Source: Flavisolibacter tropicus | GTDB taxonomy: Bacteria; Bacteroidota; Bacteroidia; Chitinophagales; Chitinophagaceae | Assembly: GCF_001644645.1 (NCBI RefSeq) | Contig: NZ_CP011390.1 | Span: 5,287,501-5,351,500 of the forward strand | Length of the DNA stretch: 64,000 bases | Direction: 5' to 3' | Shown here: positions 2 to 12,715 of the stretch, piece after piece | Numbering within the stretch: the first letter of the stretch is position 1 | Layout of the letters: each line of letters starts with the position of its first letter | Notes under the pieces: model-generated | Told to the model about the DNA's origin: nothing | Database searches by the model: none | Seen by the model: the letters and a program-made list of their open reading frames with translations, nothing else | Made by a program: the position numbers and the translations under genes

Positions 2-3000
2 GTAGGTACAGAAGGTAAACTCGGTGGCCAGGCGAAAGTGCAAGGAGTAGGTGGTACGTGGAAGGATCTGACAGACTCGGTAAACCAGATGGCCTCTAAC
101 CTTACGGCACAGGTACGTAACATCGCCGAGGTAACGACTGCGGTGGCCAACGGTGACTTATCTAAAAAGATTACGGTTAACGTACAGGGTGAGATCCTGG
201 AATTGAAAAAGACCATCAATACGATGGTGGATCAGCTTAACTCGTTTGCCTCTGAGGTAACGCGTGTGGCCCTTGAAGTGGGTACCGAGGGTAAACTCGG
301 TGGTCAGGCCAAGGTACAAGGTGTGGGTGGTACGTGGAAGGATTTGACGGATTCAGTAAACCAGATGGCATCAAATCTAACGGCCCAGGTGCGGAACATT
401 GCGGAAGTAACGACGGCGGTAGCGAAGGGGGACCTTTCCCGTAAGATCACGGTGGATGTGCGTGGTGAGATCCTGGAGTTGAAGAACACGATCAACACGA
501 TGGTGGACCAGTTGAACTCCTTTGGTTCTGAGGTATTCCGTGTGGCCCGTGAAGTAGGTTCTGAAGGTAAGTTGGGTGGACAGGCGGATGTACCTGGTGT
601 GGAAGGTTTATGGAAAGACTTAACAGACTCTGTAAATAAAATGGCCTCTAACCTGACTGCGCAAGTACGTAACATTGCCGAGGTAACAACGGCGGTGGCC
701 AACGGTGACTTGTCGCGTAAGATTGAGGTGGATGTAAAAGGAGAGATCCTTGAATTAAAGAACACCATTAATACGATGGTGGAACAATTACGTGCCTTTG
801 CCTCTGAGGTAACGAGGGTTGCCCGTGAGGTAGGTACGGAAGGTAAGCTGGGTGGTCAGGCCAACGTACCGGGAGTAGGTGGTACGTGGAAGGATTTGAC
901 GGACTCTGTGAACCAAATGGCTGGTAACCTGACCGCGCAGGTACGTAATATCGCCGAGGTGGCCATTGCAGTGGCGAACGGGGATATGAGCCGTAAGATC
1001 ACGGTGGACGTACGTGGTGAGATCCTGCAATTGAAAGAAACTCTGAACACGATGGTGGATCAGTTGCGTGCCTTCGCTTCTGAGGTAACCCGTGTGGCCC
1101 GTGAAGTAGGTTCTGAAGGTAAATTGGGTGGTCAGGCCTTCGTACCAGGTGTAGCCGGTACGTGGAAGGATTTGACGGACTCCGTGAACCAGATGACTGG
1201 TAACCTGACATCGCAGGTGCGTAACATTGCCGAGGTAACGAAGGCGGTGGCATCTGGTGACTTGTCTAAGAAAGTAACTATTGACGTAAAAGGAGAGATC
1301 CTTGACTTGAAAAATACCATCAACACGATGGTGGACCAGCTGAACTCCTTTGCCTTTGAGGTAACGCGTGTGGCCCGTGAGGTGGGTACAGAAGGTAAGC
1401 TCGGTGGTCAGGCTGAAGTACAAGGTGTGGCTGGTACGTGGAAAGACTTGACCGACTCGGTGAACATGATGGCCTCTAACCTGACCAACCAGGTGCGTGG
1501 TATCGCTAAGGTGGTAACGGCGGTGGCCACTGGTAATTTGAAACAAAAACTATCTATCGTATCTCGTGGAGAGGTAGCCCAGTTAACGGATACCATCAAC
1601 GAGATGATTGATACACTTGCCACCTTCGCCGACCAGGTAACTAACGTGGCCCGTGAGGTGGGTGTGGAAGGCCGATTGGGTGGTCAGGCATCGGTGCCGG
1701 GTGCCTCTGGTATCTGGAAGAATCTGACAGAGAACGTAAACCAGTTGGCAGAAAACCTGACCACACAGGTGCGTGCGATCTCTGAGGTGGCATCGGCGGT
1801 AACCAAGGGTGACTTGACACGAACGATTCGTGTGGAGGCAAAAGGAGAGGTGGAAGAATTGAAAGATACCATCAACCAAATGATTGCCAACCTGAAAGAA
1901 ACCACACTACGAAACCAAGAGCAAGACTGGCTGAAATCTAACCTGGCGAAGTTTACACAGATGTTGCAAGGTCAGAAGGATCTGAATACGGTAACCCGTC
2001 GAATTCTATCAGAGTTAGCACAGGTAGTAAATGCACAGCAGGGTATGTTCTATATATTAGAACAAGATGAGACTGCTATTAACCAGAAATTGAAACTGTT
2101 CTCGTCCTTTGCATACGATGAAGAACTGAATCTAAATAAAGAATTCGCCATCGGTCAAGGCCTAGTAGGGCAGTGTGCCGTGGAGAAAGAAAGAATATTG
2201 TTGAAGAACGTTCCTAAAAGCTACTTGAAAATTGGTTCTGGCTTAGGGCGTGCTACTCCAAAGAATGTGGTAGTATTACCGGTACTGTTTGAAACGGAGA
2301 TCAAAGCGGTAATTGAGCTGGCCTCATTCGATGACTTTAGTGAAACACACTTGGACTTCTTAGGTCAGTTGACCGAATCAATTGGTATCGTATTGAACAC
2401 CATTGAAGCCAACTCTCGTACAGAGGATCTGTTGGAACAATCACAGTCACTGGCAGACGAATTGAGAAGAACGAACGAAGAATTACAAGATAAAGCCCAC
2501 CTACTGGTAAAACAGAAAGAAGAGGTGGAGGAAAAGAACAAAGAGGTAGAAGAAGCAAGAAAGTCGCTGGAAGAAAAAGCCGAGCAGCTACAGCTTACTT
2601 CTAAGTATAAATCTGAGTTCCTGGCGAACATGTCGCACGAGTTGCGTACGCCGTTGAACTCACTGTTGATCCTGGCGCAGCAACTGTATGAGAACCATGA
2701 AGGTAACCTGAGTGAAAAGCAGGTACGTTATGCGAAAACCATCCACAGTTGTGGTGATGACCTGATCCAGTTGATCAATGACATCCTTGACTTGTCGAAG
2801 ATCGAGTCTGGTTATATCTCTACCGACTTTATCAACGTACGCTTCAACGAAATCACATCGTTTGTGGAAACCACGTTCAAGCATATCTCAGAAAGCAAGA
2901 GTCTCAAGTTCTCCATTGAAATGGATCAGAACCTGCCGGATAAGCTGGAAACAGACGTACAGCGTTTGAACCAGATCTTGAAGAACCTGTTGTCTAACGC

Positions 3001-4702
3001 CTTTAAGTTTACTGAAAAAGGTGGCGTACGCTTGAGGGTTTATGAAGCTCACAAGAACTGGAAACAGCTCAATCCAAGCCTGGATAATGCGAGTAAAGTG
3101 GTGGCCTTTGAAATTAAAGATTCCGGTATCGGTATCTCTAAGGACAAGCAGAACATCATCTTTGAAGCCTTCCAGCAAGCTGAAGGTTCTACGTCCCGTA
3201 AGTATGGTGGTACCGGTTTAGGATTATCCATCAGCCGGGGTTTAGCGGACCTGTTAGGTGGTTCTATTGAACTGGAGAGTGAACCAGGTAAAGGAAGTAC
3301 GTTTACGCTGTACCTGCCTATCGACTACAATCCACAGCACGTAAGAAAAGAAAAGCAAAGCTCATTAACAAATACTTTGACCATTAGTGAGTACCAGGTA
3401 GCCAGCGATAATGAAGAGACCATCCAGACTGTACAAACGGTAAAGCTGCCAGAAACAAGAGATTTGGAAGTAGTTAGTGAAATCATCAATGAAACCGGTG
3501 ATGATCGCCATAACATAAATATGGGCGACTCTGTAGTGCTGGTTGTTGAAGATGATCTGCGGTTTGGAAAGATCATGATCGAGAAAGCGCACGAGTTTAA
3601 TCTGAAAGTGGTTGTGGCTACATCCTTTGGCGAAGTCTTTGACCTGGCCAATAAGTTTACACCGATAGCAGTAACGCTTGATGTGAAACTGCCAGATGCC
3701 AGTGGATGGAGAATCCTTGATCTGTTCAAGAACGATATTAACTTCCGTCATATTCCTATTCACCTGATCTCTGGTGAAGAGAATCGCTTACTGGCTATGC
3801 AACGCGGTGCCAGAAGCTTCCACCAGAAGCCATTGAAAAATGAGGCATTGCAGGTGTTGTTCAGTGATATGGTTCGGTATAGGGATCATAAGCCGAAGAA
3901 TCTCTTACTGGTAGAAGACAATGAGCTGGATTCATCGCAAATCGCCAAGATCCTGGATAATGGTGAGGAGATAGATATTGAAATTGCCAGCACAGGTACG
4001 CAGGCATTAGAATTGATTAAAGAGAAAGAGTATGACTGTATCATTGTCGACTTCATGCTCCCTGATATTGGTGGACTGGATTTTGTAACACAGATCAACT
4101 CATTGAAGAAAGTGCAGATGACGCCGGTGTTGATCTACTCGGCTAAAGACTTTTCTCCAAAAGAAAAGACGCAGCTGAAGCAGTATGCCAATCGCATCTT
4201 GCTGAAGGACGTGCAGTCGCTGGAACTGTTGTTAGAAGAAACGGTGATGCACTTGCATCTGGATCATAAGAACCTGCTTTCTGAGAAACGTAAAATCATT
4301 GAGAATCTGCGCTCTCGTGAAGATGTATTGATAGGTAAAAATGTACTGGTAGTGGATGATGATGTGCGTAACCTGTTTGCGTTGACCACAGCCTTTGAAC
4401 GGTATAACATTAATGCCATTACAGCAGAAAGTGGACAAGAGGCGATCAATATCTTAATGGAGAACGACACTATAGATATTGTACTCATGGACATTATGAT
4501 GCCGGAAATGGATGGATATGAAACCACACAGAAGATTCGTAGGGAGCATAAGAATACGAAGCTGCCAATAATAGCAGTAACGGCTAAGGCGATGAAAGGA
4601 GACCGTGAGAAGTGTATTGAGGCGGGTGCATCTGATTACATCACTAAGCCTGTAAAAATTGATCAGCTACTATCGTTGATGCGTGTGTGGCTTTATAAAT
4701 AA
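2..4702 (+). CDS. Poly-HAMP hybrid sensor histidine kinase with three receivers (5' end outside window)
   Basis: The frame is open from base 2, so the N-terminus lies outside the window. Seven consecutive 92-residue (276-bp) HAMP-type units are visible; their conserved Trp codons (WKDLT-like motif) start at bases 59, 335, 611, 887, 1163, 1439 and 1715. Then follow a GAF-like region (about 1950-2400), a charged coiled coil (about 2420-2610), and a HisKA domain with H-box [10 protein letters not shown] (His codon 2636-2638). The ATPase domain has [21 protein letters not shown] and GGTGLGLS. Three receivers lie at about 3530-3880 (DVKLPD), 3895-4250 (DFMLPD) and 4330-4695 (DIMMPE). The expected role is a phosphorelay hub; the input signal is unknown. 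The repeat units closely resemble those of fungal group III histidine kinases (Nik1/Os-1 type). No DNA-binding output domain is present, so output must pass through partner proteins such as the next gene. Architecture is certain; function beyond that is inference. Confidence 0.95.
59..1990 (+). repeat. Tandem 276-bp HAMP-coding repeats (seven visible copies)
   Basis: In-frame tandem repetition with a constant 276-bp period inside the kinase gene. Units 1-5 are very similar even at the DNA level (for example GTACGTGGAAGGAT recurs with few changes), while units 6 and 7 are more diverged. The array continues to the left window edge, so the true copy number is unknown. Such near-identity suggests homogenisation by recombination, and possibly copy-number variation. 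Confidence 0.95.
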
Positions 4703-6399: not shown

Positions 6400-7452
6400 A
6401 TGAGGCCTTTTTACCTTTTTTATATATTCCTAATAATTAGTCCGTTTGCTAATAGTCAGCAGTTTAGCATAAAAGATTTAATTGATTTTACAAGCTATTC
6501 TGCCAATAAGTTTGATAATCACATTGCCAAAAAAGACTTCAGGCGAGACTATTATGCTCCACAGGAAAGTGTGTCTATTAGTAATTATGTTCAAAAGATT
6601 AAGAAGGGTGATTCAACAATACGGTCTATAGCATATGGATCAACTAACGGGAAGTTTAGTATTCATTATCAGACTTCATCGCAAGGGGAGCGCGAGGCCT
6701 TAAAGCAACAATTAGCTGCCGTTGGATTTCACTCTTTAGCCAATTCCGCTACTACAAGTGATGAAGGTGTAATGATGCAGCAGGGAAACTTAAGGGCTTA
6801 TTCCACTGTGGAAATAAGGGATAGTGTTCCCCTTTATACCTTTATTATTGAACGTAAAGAATTGCCCAAAGCCAAGGATATTCAGTTTGCGGAAGATTTG
6901 TTGTCTATTCCTTCTCATGAATATCTATCCTATGTATTTGGAGCGGATGCTGTAAAAAAAGATGTCTTTTACTATTCGGACACGGATACTAATAAGTGCA
7001 CTGTTTTGTTTCCCAACTCCAATAAGCAGGTCATTTTTATCTGGGATGATGAGGCAAACTATAGCAATACCGCCTTTATTCTAATAGGTGGACAGTTGCA
7101 AACCACAAATACGGCACAGACCAATTTATCAATAGAACATAATCTCTGGCATTCCCGGCAAGGCATTTACTCTGGTATGACATTGAGGGAATTGCAAGCA
7201 TTGAATGAGGGCCCTATAAACTTCTATAGTTGGGGGCAAGAGCAAGAGGGAATGTTGGCGCCAAAGAACCATGGGAGGATTGATTTTACCAAGGTGGGTG
7301 TGGTCCTGAACTGTTTGAATTGTAGTGATGGACGTTACCAGAAGACGAGTGTAGTAAGTTCTGATACACAGATACAGCAGGATAAGAAAATCTATGTGTC
7401 TACGATTATCATAATACCGGAAAAAGAGAAGTCGGCTACGGCCTCTCGGTAA
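6400..7452 (+). CDS. Secreted protein of unknown function
   Basis: 350 residues starting at ATG 6400 with a clear Sec signal peptide (MRPFYLFYIFLIISPFANSQ, likely cleavage after the AlaAsnSer segment). The mature part shows no family I recognise. It is rich in Ser/Thr and polar residues and has a Cys pair in LNCLNCSDG near residues 302-307. No T9SS sorting domain or lipobox is visible, so periplasm is the likely location. It stands alone, preceded by a 256-bp gap, and its stop is only 7 bp from the convergent end of the leftward gene at 7460. The call of a real gene rests on length, signal peptide and start context. Confidence 0.75.
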   Translation: MRPFYLFYIFLIISPFANSQQFSIKDLIDFTSYSANKFDNHIAKKDFRRDYYAPQESVSISNYVQKIKKGDSTIRSIAYGSTNGKFSIHYQTSSQGEREALKQQLAAVGFHSLANSATTSDEGVMMQQGNLRAYSTVEIRDSVPLYTFIIERKELPKAKDIQFAEDLLSIPSHEYLSYVFGADAVKKDVFYYSDTDTNKCTVLFPNSNKQVIFIWDDEANYSNTAFILIGGQLQTTNTAQTNLSIEHNLWHSRQGIYSGMTLRELQALNEGPINFYSWGQEQEGMLAPKNHGRIDFTKVGVVLNCLNCSDGRYQKTSVVSSDTQIQQDKKIYVSTIIIIPEKEKSATASR

Positions 7453-7459
7453 AGAAGCC

Positions 7460-8101
7460 TTAGCCGCTCATTTTCTTTGTCATATCTACAACCACGCCCT
7501 GGTGAAACAAATCGTTGAGTTGTGTAGGCTCTGGAGCAATGCGTGCTACCGGTCCTATTTGTTTCAATTCCAATTCTTGTTGTTCTTTCAGTTTCAGGTA
7601 TGCCTGATGGCGGGCCTGACGATAGCGTTCCAGCAACTGTAAAATCGCTGTTGTATTTACCAGTGTTTTAATGGCTCCATAGTGATTGACTTTAGCGCGT
7701 TGTAAAAAGAGAATCACATCTTCTAGTGCCAGGAAGTCTTCATAAGAAGAAAGCATGATCTCGCAAGCCAATACACTTACTTGTGTGTCAGTAGGCTGCT
7801 TGTAGCGCGGAAAGCCTAAGGATGCAATAAACTCTTTTAAGATCATTGTTAAAAGTTTATGCATGGTCTTGTTACCATACTTTAAGATCAAGCCCGGTAT
7901 ACGATCTTCAAATGGTATAGCCAGCAAGGCATCATAGCGTACGGCGTTGTCTGTCTGGTATTGCTGGCTAACCAGGTTCGCTATCATGGTATATTCTACC
8001 GTTGATGTGAACAGGCGGGAGGATGTGCGTTTGGCCTTTGGCTTATCAGAAGCCGGCTGCGCTACTTTGCCTGTGGTTTTATAATTTATTTTCTTGATCA
8101 T
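7460..8101 (-). CDS. Unknown protein, last gene of a phage-like cassette
   Basis: 213 residues with a basic N-terminal tail (many Lys before residue 30), then an apparently all-helical middle (about 45-170) and a charged Gln/Glu-rich helix (about 165-185). No catalytic motif is visible. The style (basic tail, helical core, no signal peptide) resembles small accessory or replication proteins of Bacteroidota phages, but I cannot name a family. It is the promoter-distal member of the leftward set that begins at 10496 with an ATPase in the middle. A 209-bp gap with an imperfect palindrome separates it from the preceding gene, so co-transcription is likely but not certain. Confidence 0.7.
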   Translation of the reverse strand: MIKKINYKTTGKVAQPASDKPKAKRTSSRLFTSTVEYTMIANLVSQQYQTDNAVRYDALLAIPFEDRIPGLILKYGNKTMHKLLTMILKEFIASLGFPRYKQPTDTQVSVLACEIMLSSYEDFLALEDVILFLQRAKVNHYGAIKTLVNTTAILQLLERYRQARHQAYLKLKEQQELELKQIGPVARIAPEPTQLNDLFHQGVVVDMTKKMSG

Positions 8102-8133
8102 TGTGTAGTAGTGTTTTCATTATTTGAAGAGTA

Positions 8134-8275
8134 GGATCGTGAAACGTCAAATGTGAGACGTGAAAGAAGATCGCTTATAACGTAACTCTCATTTAATGCT
8201 TCTAGGTTGTTTTGTGGAGAAGCAGGTTAACTGATAGGTAAGATGCTCACGTTTGGCGTTTCACTTCTCACGAAT
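8134..8275. repeat. Palindromic repeat pair, GTGAAACGTC family, copy 1
   Basis: Left arm GTGAAACGTCAAATGTGAG (around 8139-8157). The right arm around 8247-8272 reads as the approximate reverse complement (CTCACGTTTGGCGTTTCAC followed by TTCTCACGA). The arms are separated by about 90 bp. The same words recur between 8623 and 8757 and near 51741-51797. Confidence 0.7.
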
Positions 8276-8310
8276 CCCTACTCACCATTCACCACTGACC
8301 ACTCACCGTC

Positions 8311-8610
8311 TTAGCTCGCTTTTCTGTACTGCACGCTCATCATGCGGAGGCGTTGGTACAAGCTGCCTATGACTAGAGCGGCATTATCGTCTTCCATTTC
8401 TAATTGGTGCCACTCGGAGTCGCTATCCATTACATAGATGTCGTCTTTGGGACTTACTGCTACCGCCCATGCAGCAAAAGGGAGGGAGTGAGGGGTTACT
8501 TTTATTTCAATGGCATGATCGAAGTATAGATATTCATGACCCACTAGCTCTTTAATAATAGCGGCACATTCTTTATAAATGGTTGGTGTCATAGCTTTTG
8601 TGTTTTTCAT
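8311..8610 (-). CDS. Small unknown protein of the phage-like cassette
   Basis: 99 residues from ATG 8610, acidic in the second half (DSDSEWHQLEMEDDN), with no signal peptide and no motif I recognise. It lies in the leftward set and is bracketed on both sides by palindromic repeats of the same family, an unusual arrangement that could mark an inserted or separately folded transcript unit. An internal Met at residue 7 is an alternative start. The assignment as a real gene rests on position and absence of a competing frame; the function is unknown. Confidence 0.6.
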   Translation of the reverse strand: MKNTKAMTPTIYKECAAIIKELVGHEYLYFDHAIEIKVTPHSLPFAAWAVAVSPKDDIYVMDSDSEWHQLEMEDDNAALVIGSLYQRLRMMSVQYRKAS

Positions 8611-8622
8611 GGTTAGTGGGTC

Positions 8623-8757
8623 GGATTGTGAAACGTCAAACGTGAGACGTGAAAAGGGTCAATTGTAGTGTCGCTCTCGTTTAATGTTTCAAGACTAGCT
8701 TAATAAAAAACTAACGGTTTATCATAGGTTCACGTTTGACGTTTGACGTCTCACGAT
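8623..8757. repeat. Palindromic repeat pair, GTGAAACGTC family, copy 2
   Basis: Left arm near 8627-8654 contains GTGAAACGTCAAACGTGAG. The right arm near 8729-8757 contains CACGTTTGACGTTTGACG and TCTCACGA, built of the same words in reverse complement. Together with copy 1 it flanks the 99-residue gene. Confidence 0.7.
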
Positions 8758-8766
8758 TTCCTTTAG

Positions 8767-9261
8767 TTAGCCTCGTTCCAGCGTTATTCGATACGTCGAC
8801 CTGGATGATTTAAAAGCTCCTTCAATCACTTCGCCTGTCTCATGGTCTACGCCAATTCTGCCGGGAGCAACGCTACGTAAACGTTCTTCTAACACTTTCT
8901 TTTGTTCTTGTAAAGCCTGGATCTGTGCTTCCAGTTGGTTCCATTCGTCATTGTTGCTGTAGTCGTAGTTAACACCGGCCTCACACATTTCAATCTTGGC
9001 TCCGCTAGTGGTAATCAGCCTGCCATGATGTTTTACTAATTCATCGCGCAGGAAATGAATGTAACGTTCATCTTTCCGCATGGTCTTTACAAATTCATCC
9101 ATTGCCGCTAAGGCTTCGGCCACCTGAAACACGTTACCGTTTTCCAGTACATGCTCCACGGAGTTATCAGCCAGGTCGCGTATTTGTTTTTTGTTCAGCC
9201 CTTCCTGTATGGAAGGAAGTCCCGCCTGGGCAGGATTATGCTGCGCTAAGTGTCTTACCAT
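8767..9261 (-). CDS. Unknown coiled-coil protein of the phage-like cassette
   Basis: 164 residues from ATG 9261. Its start lies 26 bp inside the end of the upstream ATPase gene, which suggests translational coupling. A coiled coil rich in Glu/Gln (LEAQIQALQEQKKVLEERL) occupies about residues 110-128, followed by a C-terminal segment with GVDHETGEVIEG and a short beta-rich end. This layout resembles phage accessory proteins encoded next to recombination ATPases, but I cannot assign a named family. Tight coupling to the ATPase suggests a partner role, by inference only. Confidence 0.75.
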   Translation of the reverse strand: MVRHLAQHNPAQAGLPSIQEGLNKKQIRDLADNSVEHVLENGNVFQVAEALAAMDEFVKTMRKDERYIHFLRDELVKHHGRLITTSGAKIEMCEAGVNYDYSNNDEWNQLEAQIQALQEQKKVLEERLRSVAPGRIGVDHETGEVIEGAFKSSRSTYRITLERG

Positions 9262-10099
9262 TGATTTGTGATCTACGGTTAGTAATTAATTGTTGTAACA
9301 GCGGATTGGTATCGATTTCTACTTTGTTCTTGTTATACAGTTCTACCAATTCTTTTTGTGTGCTGCACTGTTCCACCTTGTCGTACCAGGCGCTGCCGGG
9401 TTTTACCGAGTTGAACACTTCTTCACCCTGCTCACACCATTTTGCTATTATTTCACCGGTTTTTTCTGAAGGAACAAAAGCTGGCTTATCGATGAACAGT
9501 CCTGTGCGATCTTTACTTGTCCAGGCGTTGTGTTTGGTATCCATTTCCAGGTTGATGGTCAGCTCATACTCAAAGCCTTCCCTGGTAATTTCTTTCAAGC
9601 CACTCTTTTCAACCTTAACGCGTCCATTGTTGTCTTTAGTCATCTCGTAATCCTGTTTGCGGCGCACCGTAGTAATGATATGCGATGGGCTGTGCAGGAT
9701 TGCCTCTAAAAATGCCTGGTGGCGAGGTGTTACCTTAGCCCAGTCCTGGTACTTACCGCCAAGGCTTTCTACAATTTCTAAACATCCACCTTTACCATCC
9801 CATTCGTGCGAGATGCTGTCGACAATAATTACTTCCATACCTGCTTTTTCGCAGGTGCGAATTGCTTCAATATAACGTTCTGGTGTAAACGGCGCCGTTA
9901 GTGGCAGTACATTGAAGTTGCCCAAGTGTGCATACAGGTCGGCGCTGCCATTTTCGGTGTCAATAACAGCTACCTTGCCCAGATCGCCACAAAGGCCTTT
10001 TGCAATTTGTATGGCACTATAGGTTTTACCAGCGCCAGATACTGCAGATAGTCCTAAGCGGATCTTGGCTTTCTTTCGTGTTGCTTTTCTTAATTCCAT
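9236..10099 (-). CDS. Phage-type RecA-fold/AAA ATPase (Sak4-like)
   Basis: 287 residues. After a basic N-terminus (RKATRKKAKIRLG) comes a Walker A motif AVSGAGKT (residues 19-26), an acidic DTENGSADLY segment (about 46-55), and a Walker B-like strand MEVIIVDSISHEW (about 90-102). This pattern matches the AAA/RecA-fold ATPases found in phage early regions, some known as Sak4 recombinases, which work with single-strand annealing or ssDNA-binding proteins. The C-terminal part (about 190-287) has no recognisable motif. It sits in the middle of a leftward operon facing an S24-type repressor. No classical annealing protein (RecT, Redbeta, Erf) is visible beside it; the coiled-coil protein downstream may take that place. 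The ATPase fold is well supported; the recombination role is inference. Confidence 0.85.
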   Translation of the reverse strand: MELRKATRKKAKIRLGLSAVSGAGKTYSAIQIAKGLCGDLGKVAVIDTENGSADLYAHLGNFNVLPLTAPFTPERYIEAIRTCEKAGMEVIIVDSISHEWDGKGGCLEIVESLGGKYQDWAKVTPRHQAFLEAILHSPSHIITTVRRKQDYEMTKDNNGRVKVEKSGLKEITREGFEYELTINLEMDTKHNAWTSKDRTGLFIDKPAFVPSEKTGEIIAKWCEQGEEVFNSVKPGSAWYDKVEQCSTQKELVELYNKNKVEIDTNPLLQQLITNRRSQINGKTLSAA

Positions 10100-10127
10100 T
10101 GTATATCGTATTTAATCGTACTCGTGT

Positions 10128-10192
10128 GATGAATGATGAGTAATCAGTAATGAGTGACTGATTTGTTCATCACTCATTATTCATTGCTCATT
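10128..10192. repeat. Intergenic imperfect palindrome of ATGA/TCAT words
   Basis: The left arm (10128-10157) is made of GATGAATGATGAGTAATCAG and AATGAGTGA words. The right arm (10166-10190) reads TTCATCACTCATTATTCATT, its approximate reverse complement. It fills the gap between the ATPase and the first gene of the leftward operon, where it could form a transcript hairpin. Confidence 0.65.
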
Positions 10193-10193
10193 T

Positions 10194-10496
10194 TTACGCA
10201 GCCTTGTTCATGCTATTCTCCAACTGGTTGGCGAAGTAGCGGATGGCGGCTTCTTCTAGATCTTCCAGTACGCCGGTCACTTCCAGTACTGGTTTTATAT
10301 CTGTACCGTTCCATCTGATAAACTCAATGTCTACGGTATAGCGGTCAAAAACATCAATAGGGCTGGCAGAAGGATTGAAATAACCGATGCCTTCGATCAC
10401 TAAATCACCCACATGTTCTGTTACGATCTTCAGGTCCTTCACCACTTTATGCTTAAGTGGATAGTGAAAAATGAATTCCTTTTTGAGCTTATGCAT
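10194..10496 (-). CDS. Small unknown protein, first gene of the phage-like operon
   Basis: 100 residues counted from ATG at 10496 (MHKLKKEF); a GTG two codons upstream (10502) is an alternative. It is mixed alpha/beta in appearance with an acidic C-terminal helix (LEDLEEAAIRYFANQLENS). No known family is recognised. It is the promoter-proximal gene facing the S24 repressor across a 109-bp region full of TGTGAA/TTCACA elements, so it is expected to be directly repressed. Confidence 0.7.
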   Translation of the reverse strand: MHKLKKEFIFHYPLKHKVVKDLKIVTEHVGDLVIEGIGYFNPSASPIDVFDRYTVDIEFIRWNGTDIKPVLEVTGVLEDLEEAAIRYFANQLENSMNKAA

Positions 10497-10507
10497 AACC
10501 ACTTGGA

Positions 10508-10592
10508 TTTGTGAATAAATACACTAAATTTGTGAATAATAAAGTTACATAATTTCACATTATCCACATAATATTCACATTTAAATTCACAA
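10508..10592. promoter_or_regulatory. Divergent operator array for the S24-type repressor
   Basis: The gap between the leftward operon (start 10496) and the repressor gene (start 10606) contains TGTGAA at 10510 and 10531, exactly 21 bp apart within TTTGTGAATAA contexts. On the other side are TTCACA at 10554, TCCACA at 10563, TTCACA at 10574 and TTCACA at 10586, with 9- to 12-bp spacing. Pairs in opposite orientation make dyads typical for a dimeric repressor. The 21-bp spacing equals two helical turns. Another ATTCACA lies in the repressor coding region near 10793. The two orientations may serve the two divergent promoters. Confidence 0.7.
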
Positions 10593-10605
10593 TTGGTTAA
10601 CACAT

Positions 10606-11343
10606 ATGAAAACTGAGTATAACATAAAGAATATCAGGCAGTTGTATAACCTTACCCAAGAGGAATTTGCTACTGCATTGGGCATAACACGTGAATTGGT
10701 CAATAAAATGGAGAAAGGCAAGTGTGGCGTGAGTAAGGCCACGAAATTGCTCATTAATAACTTCATAGAGGAGCGAAAAAGTGAAGATTATTCACATTCA
10801 ATTGTTAGCGATGTGCAAATTTTTGGTACGGCGCATTCTAAAACGCGTAACCTGCCTTACTACTTAGAGCGCAGAGAGCAGAAGAAAGAGGTGCGCCAGT
10901 TGGAAGTGCCCCTGGTTGGTATTAAGGCGCAGGCGGGCTACGTAAAGGCTTATGAGCAAACGGATTATTTAGATACCTTAGAAAAATACTCTTTGCCTCC
11001 TGGAGTGAACCCTACAGGAGCTGTTTGGAGCTATTTTGAAGTAGACGGGGAAAGCATGGAGCCTACCTTGTTTGCTGGCGATCTTATCCTGGCTACGATG
11101 TTGCCGCATGAAGACTGGCCCGATATCCGCAATTTTAGCGTATATATCATATTAACCGGGGAACAGCTGTTGGTGAAACGCGTTTACCAGCTTAATGATA
11201 AAGAATGGGTACTGATCTCGGACAACGAAGACGTAGCTCCACAAATGCGTATCCTTGTAGACGATATCAAGCAGGTTTGGACATTCCGCCGCCACATACG
11301 CTCTCGCGTACCGCAGCCAAGGGAATTTAAGATTACGGCATAA
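10606..11343 (+). CDS. LexA/CI-like repressor: XRE helix-turn-helix plus S24 self-cleaving peptidase
   Basis: 245 residues. The N-terminal XRE-type HTH spans about 5-56 (LTQEEFATALGITRELVNKM). The C-terminal S24 peptidase domain starts near 100. The likely self-cleavage dyad is Ala110-Gly111 (KAQAGYVKAY), the nucleophile Ser150 (GESMEPT) and the general base Lys191 (LLVKRVY); their order and spacing agree with LexA/CI. It should dimerise, bind the dyads upstream of its own gene and the divergent operon, and lose activity on RecA-stimulated autocleavage after DNA damage. It resembles phage CI-type repressors more than the host LexA because its target is the neighbouring phage-like operon. Start ATG 10606 is the only sensible one. 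Confidence 0.92.
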   Translation: MKTEYNIKNIRQLYNLTQEEFATALGITRELVNKMEKGKCGVSKATKLLINNFIEERKSEDYSHSIVSDVQIFGTAHSKTRNLPYYLERREQKKEVRQLEVPLVGIKAQAGYVKAYEQTDYLDTLEKYSLPPGVNPTGAVWSYFEVDGESMEPTLFAGDLILATMLPHEDWPDIRNFSVYIILTGEQLLVKRVYQLNDKEWVLISDNEDVAPQMRILVDDIKQVWTFRRHIRSRVPQPREFKITA

Positions 11344-11645: not shown

Positions 11646-11716
11646 CTAATTTTCAAATAACAAATTAACAATTCCCTAAAGCTGCTTAATTTTAGCGCCA
11701 CTATTGATACTTGCCT

Positions 11717-12715
11717 ATGCCATCTAATGCAAACAGACAGTTCCTGGATTTTGAGAAGCCTATTAAGGATTTGATCGATGAGATTGAACGTCTGAAACAC
11801 GCCGCTGAGCAAAAGAAAATTGATTATTCTGAGCAAATTGCCAAACTGGAAGAGCAAATATTGGAGCGTCGTCAACAGATAACGCAAAACCTGACCAGCT
11901 GGCAAAGGGTGCAATTAAGCCGTCATCCGGATCGCCCCTATACCTTGAAGTATATTGAGAAAATGACTGAAAACTTTGTGGAGCTGTATGGCGACCGCAA
12001 TGTGAAGGACGATAAAGCCATGGTGGGTGGATTTGCCCAGCTAAATGGAGAAACCGTAATGTTCATTGGTCAGCAGAAAGGGATCAATACCAAGACGCGT
12101 CAGCTGCGAAACTTTGGTATGGCCAATCCTGAGGGGTACCGCAAAGCGCTACGCCTGATGCGCCTGGCCGAAAAGTTCAACAAACCCATTGTTGCCTTAA
12201 TTGATACACCGGGTGCCTATCCGGGCCTGGAAGCAGAAGAGCGTGGACAAGGGGAAGCTATTGCCCGCAATATTTATGAAATGATACGCCTGAAGGTGCC
12301 GGTAATTGTCGTAATTATTGGAGAAGGCGCCTCTGGTGGTGCACTGGGTATAGGCGTGGGCGACCGCGTATATATGATGGAGAACACCTGGTATACGGTA
12401 ATTTCTCCTGAAAGCTGTTCTTCAATCTTATGGAGAAGCTGGGATAAAAAAGAAGTAGCTGCCGAGCAGCTGCGTCTGACAGCCGATCACATGAAAGGCT
12501 TTGGACTGGTAGATGATATTATTCCTGAACCAGCTGGTGGTGCGCACTGGAACTACGATGTGGCTGCCCAGATTTTGAAGAACCATTTAATTAATGTTTT
12601 AAAAGAGCTGAAAGCCATTCCTACTGAAGAGCGCATTAATCAGCGTATTGATAAATTCGGCCGTATGGGCTTCTGGGAAGAGGCGGCTTTGGAAATTCCT
12701 GGAGAAGAAGCATAG
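11717..12715 (+). CDS. accA: Acetyl-CoA carboxylase carboxyltransferase subunit alpha
   Basis: 332 residues from ATG 11717 (an in-frame TTG two codons upstream is less likely). AccA pairs with AccD to transfer the carboxyl group from carboxybiotin to acetyl-CoA, giving malonyl-CoA for fatty-acid synthesis. It shows the typical N-terminal helical region ([17 protein letters not shown]), the central [20 protein letters not shown] block and the oxyanion-type [15 protein letters not shown]. Length fits the family. accB and accC are about 24 kb away in this window; accD is not in the window. It is followed by dapA after a 106-bp gap holding a repeat. Confidence 0.97.

Follow-up and report, generated by a model that had tools for sequence, protein, structure and literature searches.

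Does a compact group of phage-type genes on a bacterial chromosome work for the cell that carries it, or is it what remains of a prophage? This question is raised by a six-gene cassette at positions 7460-11343 of a stretch of 64,000 nucleotides from Flavisolibacter tropicus, referred to below as the window (G000:C1:5287501-5351500; the genome, G000, is complete and measures 5.94 Mb). In the cassette a repressor gene, R, on the plus strand is divergent from a leftward operon of five genes, A-B-C-D-E, and the six open reading frames (ORFs) were found at the positions that had been given in an initial annotation of the sequence:

7460-8101, minus strand: E, 213 amino acids, helical, Pfam DUF6633
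8311-8610, minus strand: D, 99 amino acids
8767-9261, minus strand: C, 164 amino acids, coiled-coil-like; it shares its first 26 nucleotides with the end of B
9236-10099, minus strand: B, 287 amino acids, RecA-fold AAA_24 ATPase, Sak4-like at superfamily level
10194-10502, minus strand: A, first gene of the operon, 102 amino acids from a GTG start or 100 from an ATG at 10496
10606-11343, plus strand: R, 245 amino acids, repressor with an XRE helix-turn-helix (HTH) and an S24 peptidase domain; predicted cleavage bond A110-G111, dyad S150/K191

We favour, with moderate confidence, the reading that the immunity and early region of a prophage was captured and has been retained as a private recombination operon that is probably inducible by DNA damage. 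Its domestication is strongly supported, and inducibility by DNA damage is plausible by analogy with related repressors. The initial annotation had left a domesticated module and a prophage remnant side by side; it is the former that is favoured, because the cassette recurs in most genomes of the genus, the main groups of its tree agree with those of a tree of host genes, its genes are under purifying selection and its control region is conserved.

Conservation and descent of the cassette

All six genes are present, with their order kept, in 15 of the 18 genomes of the GTDB genus (one genome per species), a recurrence that covers five named genera from a group of soil bacteria and puts the locus far beyond chance. 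A and B each occur in the same 15 genomes, that of the window included, and the loci retrieved from the 14 other carriers show the six genes in the same order in every case. The carriers are Flavisolibacter ginsengisoli, Flavisolibacter longurius (two records), Flavisolibacter nicotianae, Flaviaesturariibacter flavus, Flaviaesturariibacter aridisoli, Cnuella takakiae, Paraflavisolibacter caeni and Paracnuella aquatica, which provides a sixteenth copy, together with metagenome-assembled genomes. The cassette is absent from three genomes of the genus, G002, G011 and G017, which are 90%, 62% and 92% complete, respectively. A profile of A, applied to a 394-genome sample of the family that contained only part of the genus, recovered nine genomes of the genus and, as a weak outlier, G162 (E 1.3e-8). 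Moreover, a pattern scan for A over a collection of 84,980 species, which reaches mainly close relatives, yielded 14 confirmed loci among 52 stretches, all of them from this clade. The initial annotation would have taken a cassette that was unique to one strain, or that lay beside degraded structural genes, for a decaying prophage; neither applies here.

The chromosomal position can be followed with the help of two neighbouring genes, which serve as landmarks outside the module:

6400-7452, plus strand: 350-amino-acid secreted-looking protein, ancestral left-hand neighbour, no Pfam match
11711-12715, plus strand: accA, ancestral right-hand neighbour

The names of the flanking genes (accA, dapA and others) were assigned by reading, that of accA without a family search. 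As many as 14 of the 16 copies adjoin one of the two landmarks: accA lies beside ten of them, at gaps of 85-904 bp, and the upstream secreted-protein gene beside five, the window having both. The expectation that the same gene order might recur at different loci was thus mostly wrong, with Flavisolibacter ginsengisoli (G014) as the real exception. In G014, and in G001, where the E side lies at a contig end, neither ancestral neighbour is found within the retrieved stretch; in G010, G012 and G016 accA and dapA lie elsewhere, which indicates that a break lies on the right-hand side of the cassette. The cassette-free G017 shows an empty site (L150 243-1466), in which accA directly follows the secreted-protein gene on one contig, the former starting at 1466 and the latter ending at 1307. 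No tRNA gene lies within the window, none of the six genes encodes an integrase, structural or lysis protein, and the nearest match to a tyrosine-type integrase (PF00589) is about 87 kb away, the genome-wide search having been made for this family and not for serine integrases or structural genes.

A tree of the cassette, built from B, A and R, repeats the main groups of a tree of accA and dapA. The groups shared by both are Cnuella with Paracnuella, G004 with G005, G010 with G012 and G016, and a five-genome group of G003, G007, G009, G006 and G015, whose inner branching differs between the trees at weak nodes.

The cassette is under purifying selection. Considering six genes in each of 16 copies, 93 of the 96 are full-length. 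In G008, R extends past the end of the contig, C of Cnuella contains a run of N by which its end cannot be judged, and C of G016 is shortened in frame to 83 amino acids with both conserved ends kept (L115 10207-10458). The ratio of nonsynonymous to synonymous substitution rates (dN/dS), estimated by a counting method for six genome pairs with finite estimates only, was 0.019-0.093 for B, 0.046-0.113 for R, 0.058-0.192 for A, 0.055-0.231 for C (0.118 without the Cnuella pair), 0.060-0.217 for E and 0.088-0.273 for D, values that are rough since several synonymous estimates are saturated (proportion of synonymous differences in the cassette, pS, 0.35-0.86). The comparison genes gave 0.033-0.058 (accA, four pairs) and 0.078-0.103 (dapA, two pairs), and B was below accA in three of the four pairs measured for both. 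All finite values lie below 0.28, far under 1, with D and E as the faster-evolving genes.

The arrangement within the operon is kept as well. B and C overlap by 23-26 nucleotides in 14 of the 15 copies checked, and C and D by 4 nucleotides in 10 of the 14 named loci, with start codons chosen by script. The operon of the window strain also contains two elements of about 125 bp with inverted TCACGTTTGACGTTTCAC-like ends, one at 8139-8264, between D and E, and one at 8628-8754, between C and D. Eight matches to these ends (at most three mismatches) occur in the window, where 0.04 would be expected, and six of them lie within the elements. Since C and D overlap in most named relatives, the elements look like strain-specific insertions in the operon. 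At the left end of the window, 38-4702 holds an ORF of 1554 amino acids for a hybrid histidine kinase with numerous near-identical N-terminal tandem repeats, which are HAMP-like by reading only.

The ATPase and its phage relatives

B is likely to work in the manner of a RecA-core single-stranded DNA (ssDNA) ATPase. The window copy matches AAA_24 (E 2.3e-16) and phrog_1366 (1.2e-79), and the other cassette copies are 77-87% identical to it, the range for the 14 further genomes of the genus being 78-87%. Within the B family, 12 of the 18 members, the window copy not among them, match phrog_124, 'Sak4-like ssDNA annealing protein' (best 8.9e-13); four match UvsX-like proteins and seven also a clamp-loader family, and such cross-family matches are typical of P-loop ATPases. 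Compared with single RecA chains, the family profile gave E values of 0.0035-0.005 over positions 17-97, about from Walker A to Walker B. AAA_24 is found both in the window B and in HkaL, the Sak4 of HK620. The initial annotation had called B Sak4-like, which holds at the superfamily level; membership of Sak4 proper is not established, because a direct profile comparison with HK620 Sak4 fails and the window B convincingly matches phrog_1366, and not phrog_124 or phrog_2872. Its remark that an annealing partner was missing carries little weight, HK620 Sak4 being itself an annealing protein; what is absent here is a cognate ssb, the gene for the ssDNA-binding protein (SSB), whereas PMC5928155 has up to 80% of sak4 genes adjoining one. 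None of the six genes matches an ssb family, and a model of A had no confident match.

Family searches gave no firm match for A, C and D. E had been counted among the unknown proteins, although it has a family, and in this respect the initial annotation is to be corrected: 16 of 16 aligned members match DUF6633 at E<=1 (best 1.3e-7), the window copy on its own staying under the cut-off (17.3 of 27 bits), and many of its relatives are pre-assigned to PF20338.

Relatives of B were found in 38 viral loci and in 409 of 50,697 phage records, all at less than 60% identity. At E<=0.01, the 38 viral loci contain a C homologue in 16 cases, several of them weak, an E homologue in three, one of them weak, a D homologue in two (L006 and L030, directly upstream of B in both), an R homologue in two (25-30% identity) and an A homologue in one (L005, 37%). 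The homologues that B, C, D and E have in viruses sit in phage replication-recombination regions; in L006, for instance, the E homologue adjoins a primosomal-like protein, and a methyltransferase and an Orf/NinB-like mediator belong to the same neighbourhood. Viral contigs almost entirely lack A, for which no relative was confirmed among the 99 stretches of the viral-contig scan; A may therefore have been added, or strongly reshaped, after capture.

In a tree of B the copies from the cassettes cluster together (support 80), with L006 as their neighbour (98). The B of a Cnuella prophage is nested within the cassette clade, together with Cnuella and Paracnuella (support 94), so that exchange between cassette and prophage probably took place at least once. 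This prophage early region, from Cnuella takakiae (L081 6326-9417), has the same B core as the viral contig L005 and carries an A homologue followed by a possible D-like domain within one ORF.

Such exchange would also fit a phage-related defence or immunity unit, in which R (by superinfection repression) and/or A-E would meet incoming phages and the ATPase would exchange with or sabotage phage DNA. Indeed, a prophage context or a phage homologue that lies outside the cassette clade was found for five of the six genes, and the repressor Stl2 of SaPI2 binds and inhibits Sak/Sak4, according to PMC11846896. This role is nevertheless rather unlikely. Among the cassette proteins only R matches PADLOC models (E<=0.01), and it does so by its HTH alone. 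Moreover, genes of defence are expected to change fast, and B is strongly conserved, even if D and E do evolve faster.

The repressor and its control region

R has the features of a self-cleaving S24 repressor, namely an HTH (HTH_3, E 1.1e-7), an S24 domain (Peptidase_S24, 7.1e-11), an Ala-Gly bond and a Ser/Lys dyad, and it matches the transcriptional repressors of phrog_4 (1.1e-15). The residues to which the initial annotation had drawn attention, Ala110-Gly111, Ser150 and Lys191, are present and invariant across the 14 aligned repressors.

Three S24 proteins were found in the window genome: a UmuD-like protein with a UmuC-like one next to it (both named by reading), R, and an XRE-S24 protein on the side of surE (L089 7170-7959). 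The last of these has two CTAATTTATTTAG sites immediately upstream, which correspond to the Bacteroidetes-LexA motif given in PMC8565304, and it is probably the non-canonical Bacteroidetes LexA of this genome. Genome-wide, this motif was not above control in the window genome. Classical LexA (PF01726) was found in none of the eight genomes searched, and the control region of R (10503-10605) contains neither CTAA-N5-TTAG nor GGA-N5-TCC in exact form, which leaves room for diverged paralogue motifs. Considering the lack of PF01726 and the CTAATTTATTTAG sites of the surE-side protein, R looks like an extra, private switch. A umuDC-like pair, named by reading (L090 5345-7089), is without an exact CTAA-N5-TTAG and has degenerate CTAAAATACTTGG-like words upstream.

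R might also be a host Bacteroidetes LexA that was duplicated, diverged and acquired phage genes, rather than a captured phage repressor. It aligns with the surE-side protein along its length, at 30% identity, and LexA paralogues with diverged motifs are reported in PMC8565304. Yet R is nearer to the closest viral repressor found, L157, with 36% identity over the alignment and 49% in the peptidase domain, these being pairwise identities and not an S24 tree; L157 was the sole repressor relative confirmed among the 41 stretches of that scan, and its contig carries a RecT-type annealing protein and an integrase. Descent of R from the host LexA is therefore improbable.

R and A share a conserved control region, with the following elements:

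10510-10591: operator-like region, with TGTGAA at 10510 and 10531, TTCACA at 10554, 10574 and 10586, and TTATCCACA at 10560
10525-10532, plus strand: TAAATTTG, candidate -7 element of the R promoter, which the alignment of control regions shows to be conserved
10539-10548, minus strand: GTAACTTTAT (as read on that strand), candidate -7 element of the A-E promoter, last base off consensus

The -7 consensus of Bacteroidetes is TAnnTTTG. Across 16 genomes the region has a mean column identity of 83% over 73 columns, 27 of which are invariant, and this despite a difference of 35-86% at the synonymous sites of the cassette. Each of the 16 regions holds 3-6 TGTGAA/TTCACA half-sites, which overlap or flank the candidate -7 elements of both promoters, and nowhere else in the window than in the R/A region do more than two such half-sites fall within 110 bp. 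The pattern TTCACA-N6-TTCACAA occurs exactly once in the window genome, at the cassette, and six of its nine exact matches in eight genomes lie at a cassette, the reversed-pattern control giving none. When one mismatch was allowed, 15 matches were found in the window genome versus 14 for the control, i.e. no enrichment. With the exact motif only at the cassette in this genome and no enrichment of its near matches, the proposed control by R seems to be local.

The same region might also be DnaA-responsive or origin-like, which would tie the operon to replication stress via DnaA instead of, or besides, RecA-dependent cleavage of R. The DnaA-box consensus of E. coli is TTWTNCACA; three exact 9-mers of this kind lie in the 109-bp region, of nine in the 64-kb window, and 29 are found across the 16 control regions. 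We regard control by DnaA as very unlikely, since G006 and G015 have no such 9-mer and conservation is highest for the TTCACA/TGTGAA half-site rather than for the complete 9-mer. Hardly credible, finally, is a decaying prophage remnant without present function: the lack of integrase, structural and lysis genes, the three genomes without the cassette, the cut C of G016 and the repeat elements in the operon of the window strain may be quoted in its favour, but genus-wide nearly all genes are full-length with low dN/dS, the catalytic residues are invariant, the control region is conserved and the position is mostly stable.

The proposed switch and its known counterparts

The reading that we prefer, a captured prophage region turned into a private switch of the cell, would imply the following course. 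The immunity and early region of a temperate phage would have been captured, in a single event, by an ancestor of the Flavisolibacter-Cnuella-Flaviaesturariibacter group, would have lost the genes for integration, structure and lysis, and would have been maintained by selection as a self-contained switch. Acting at the shared region (10503-10605), R is predicted to repress its own gene as well as the divergent operon A-E. Upon DNA damage, RecA-ssDNA filaments would provoke self-cleavage of R at A110-G111, as the biology of S24 repressors suggests, and the operon would be released. B might then act on ssDNA, together with A, C, D, E and the SSB of the host, in annealing or recombinational repair, a role that the phage context of its relatives points to.

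Several points weigh against this proposal. Induction, cleavage of R and binding of R to DNA are predicted only, the putative link between R and its operator is derived from position, the half-sites form no single fixed-spacer palindrome in the 16 control regions, and some of them resemble DnaA boxes. As to the ATPase, phrog_1366 is a PHROG of unknown function, the direct comparison with HK620 Sak4 fails, and the cassette, unlike phage modules, is without ssb, exonuclease or helicase. Absence from three of the 18 genomes shows that the cassette is dispensable. Moreover, in the accA and dapA tree G002 is basal and the cassette-free G017 falls among the carriers (weak support, 37-49), so that the latter may represent a loss. 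In Flavisolibacter ginsengisoli (G014; L077 / L113) the cassette lies away from both ancestral neighbours, and this genome stands outside most carriers in the accA and dapA tree, whereas the cassette tree places it beside the five-genome group (72-81); the odd position and the conflict of trees suggest that this copy may have been relocated or transferred. Considering this conflict and the prophage B within the cassette clade, the descent is not purely vertical.

We put forward tentatively that the cassette constitutes a second, LexA-independent damage circuit, a prophage immunity region midway between phage and host function that would have become fixed in a common ancestor of five or more genera, and composed of a private self-cleaving repressor, an annealing/recombination operon and four uncharacterised accessory proteins. 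Such a circuit would provide an actual case of the capture step hypothesised in the legend of Figure 9 of the Bacteroidetes-LexA paper (PMC8565304). It would amount to a natural genus-wide experiment in which a phage switch becomes the damage response of the cell itself, with the cassette-free relatives as controls and with public genomes for named carriers (Flavisolibacter ginsengisoli DSM 18119, Cnuella takakiae, Flaviaesturariibacter flavus). If B works with host SSB, cells of the group would possess, in addition to RecA, a phage-type pathway of annealing that can be induced, and candidates for the partners of ATPases of this kind would be available in the four uncharacterised proteins.

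The cassette resembles known systems in its parts. The early regions of temperate phages of Bacteroidetes (L006, L081, L157) have homologues of A, B, C, D, E or R in a recombination or replication context, but carry genes that the cassette does not have, such as the primosomal-like, methyltransferase and Orf/NinB-like genes of L006 and the RecT-type gene and integrase of L157. HK620 Sak4 shares with B the AAA_24 domain, a RecA-core ATPase and a place in a recombination module (PMC5928155); it belongs to phrog_2872/124 and adjoins an ssb, whereas the window B belongs to phrog_1366, is without an adjoining ssb and lies on the chromosome, genus-wide. The non-canonical LexA of Bacteroidetes has, like R, an XRE HTH with an S24 domain, the Ala-Gly bond, the Ser/Lys dyad and a presumed phage origin, but it controls multi-operon SOS regulons through CTAA-N5-TTAG or GGA-N5-TCC (PMC8565304), neither of which is present in the region of R.

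The initial annotation had spoken of an undescribed system. For the unit itself this agrees with our literature search, which found no description and had subscription papers and preprints outside its scope; units of an S24 repressor with a divergent gene, on the other hand, have already been published. The nearest precedent is FddR of Francisella, which PMC13148647 presents as a phage repressor that occurs genus-wide, faces a divergent gene and has a regulon of local extent. Both are phage-type S24 repressors that appear co-opted into a self-contained divergent unit, genus-wide (15 of 18 genomes in the present case) and with mainly local control. FddR acts on one gene of unknown function (some paralogue units have dinB instead), and the palindrome that it uses, GTG-N11-CAC, was shown by experiment (PMC13148647), whereas the half-sites of the cassette are arranged otherwise and known from sequence. 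What would set the cassette apart from FddR is that a whole recombination operon, five phage-type genes including a RecA-fold ATPase, is placed under the switch, in a host that has retained a separate LexA-like protein.

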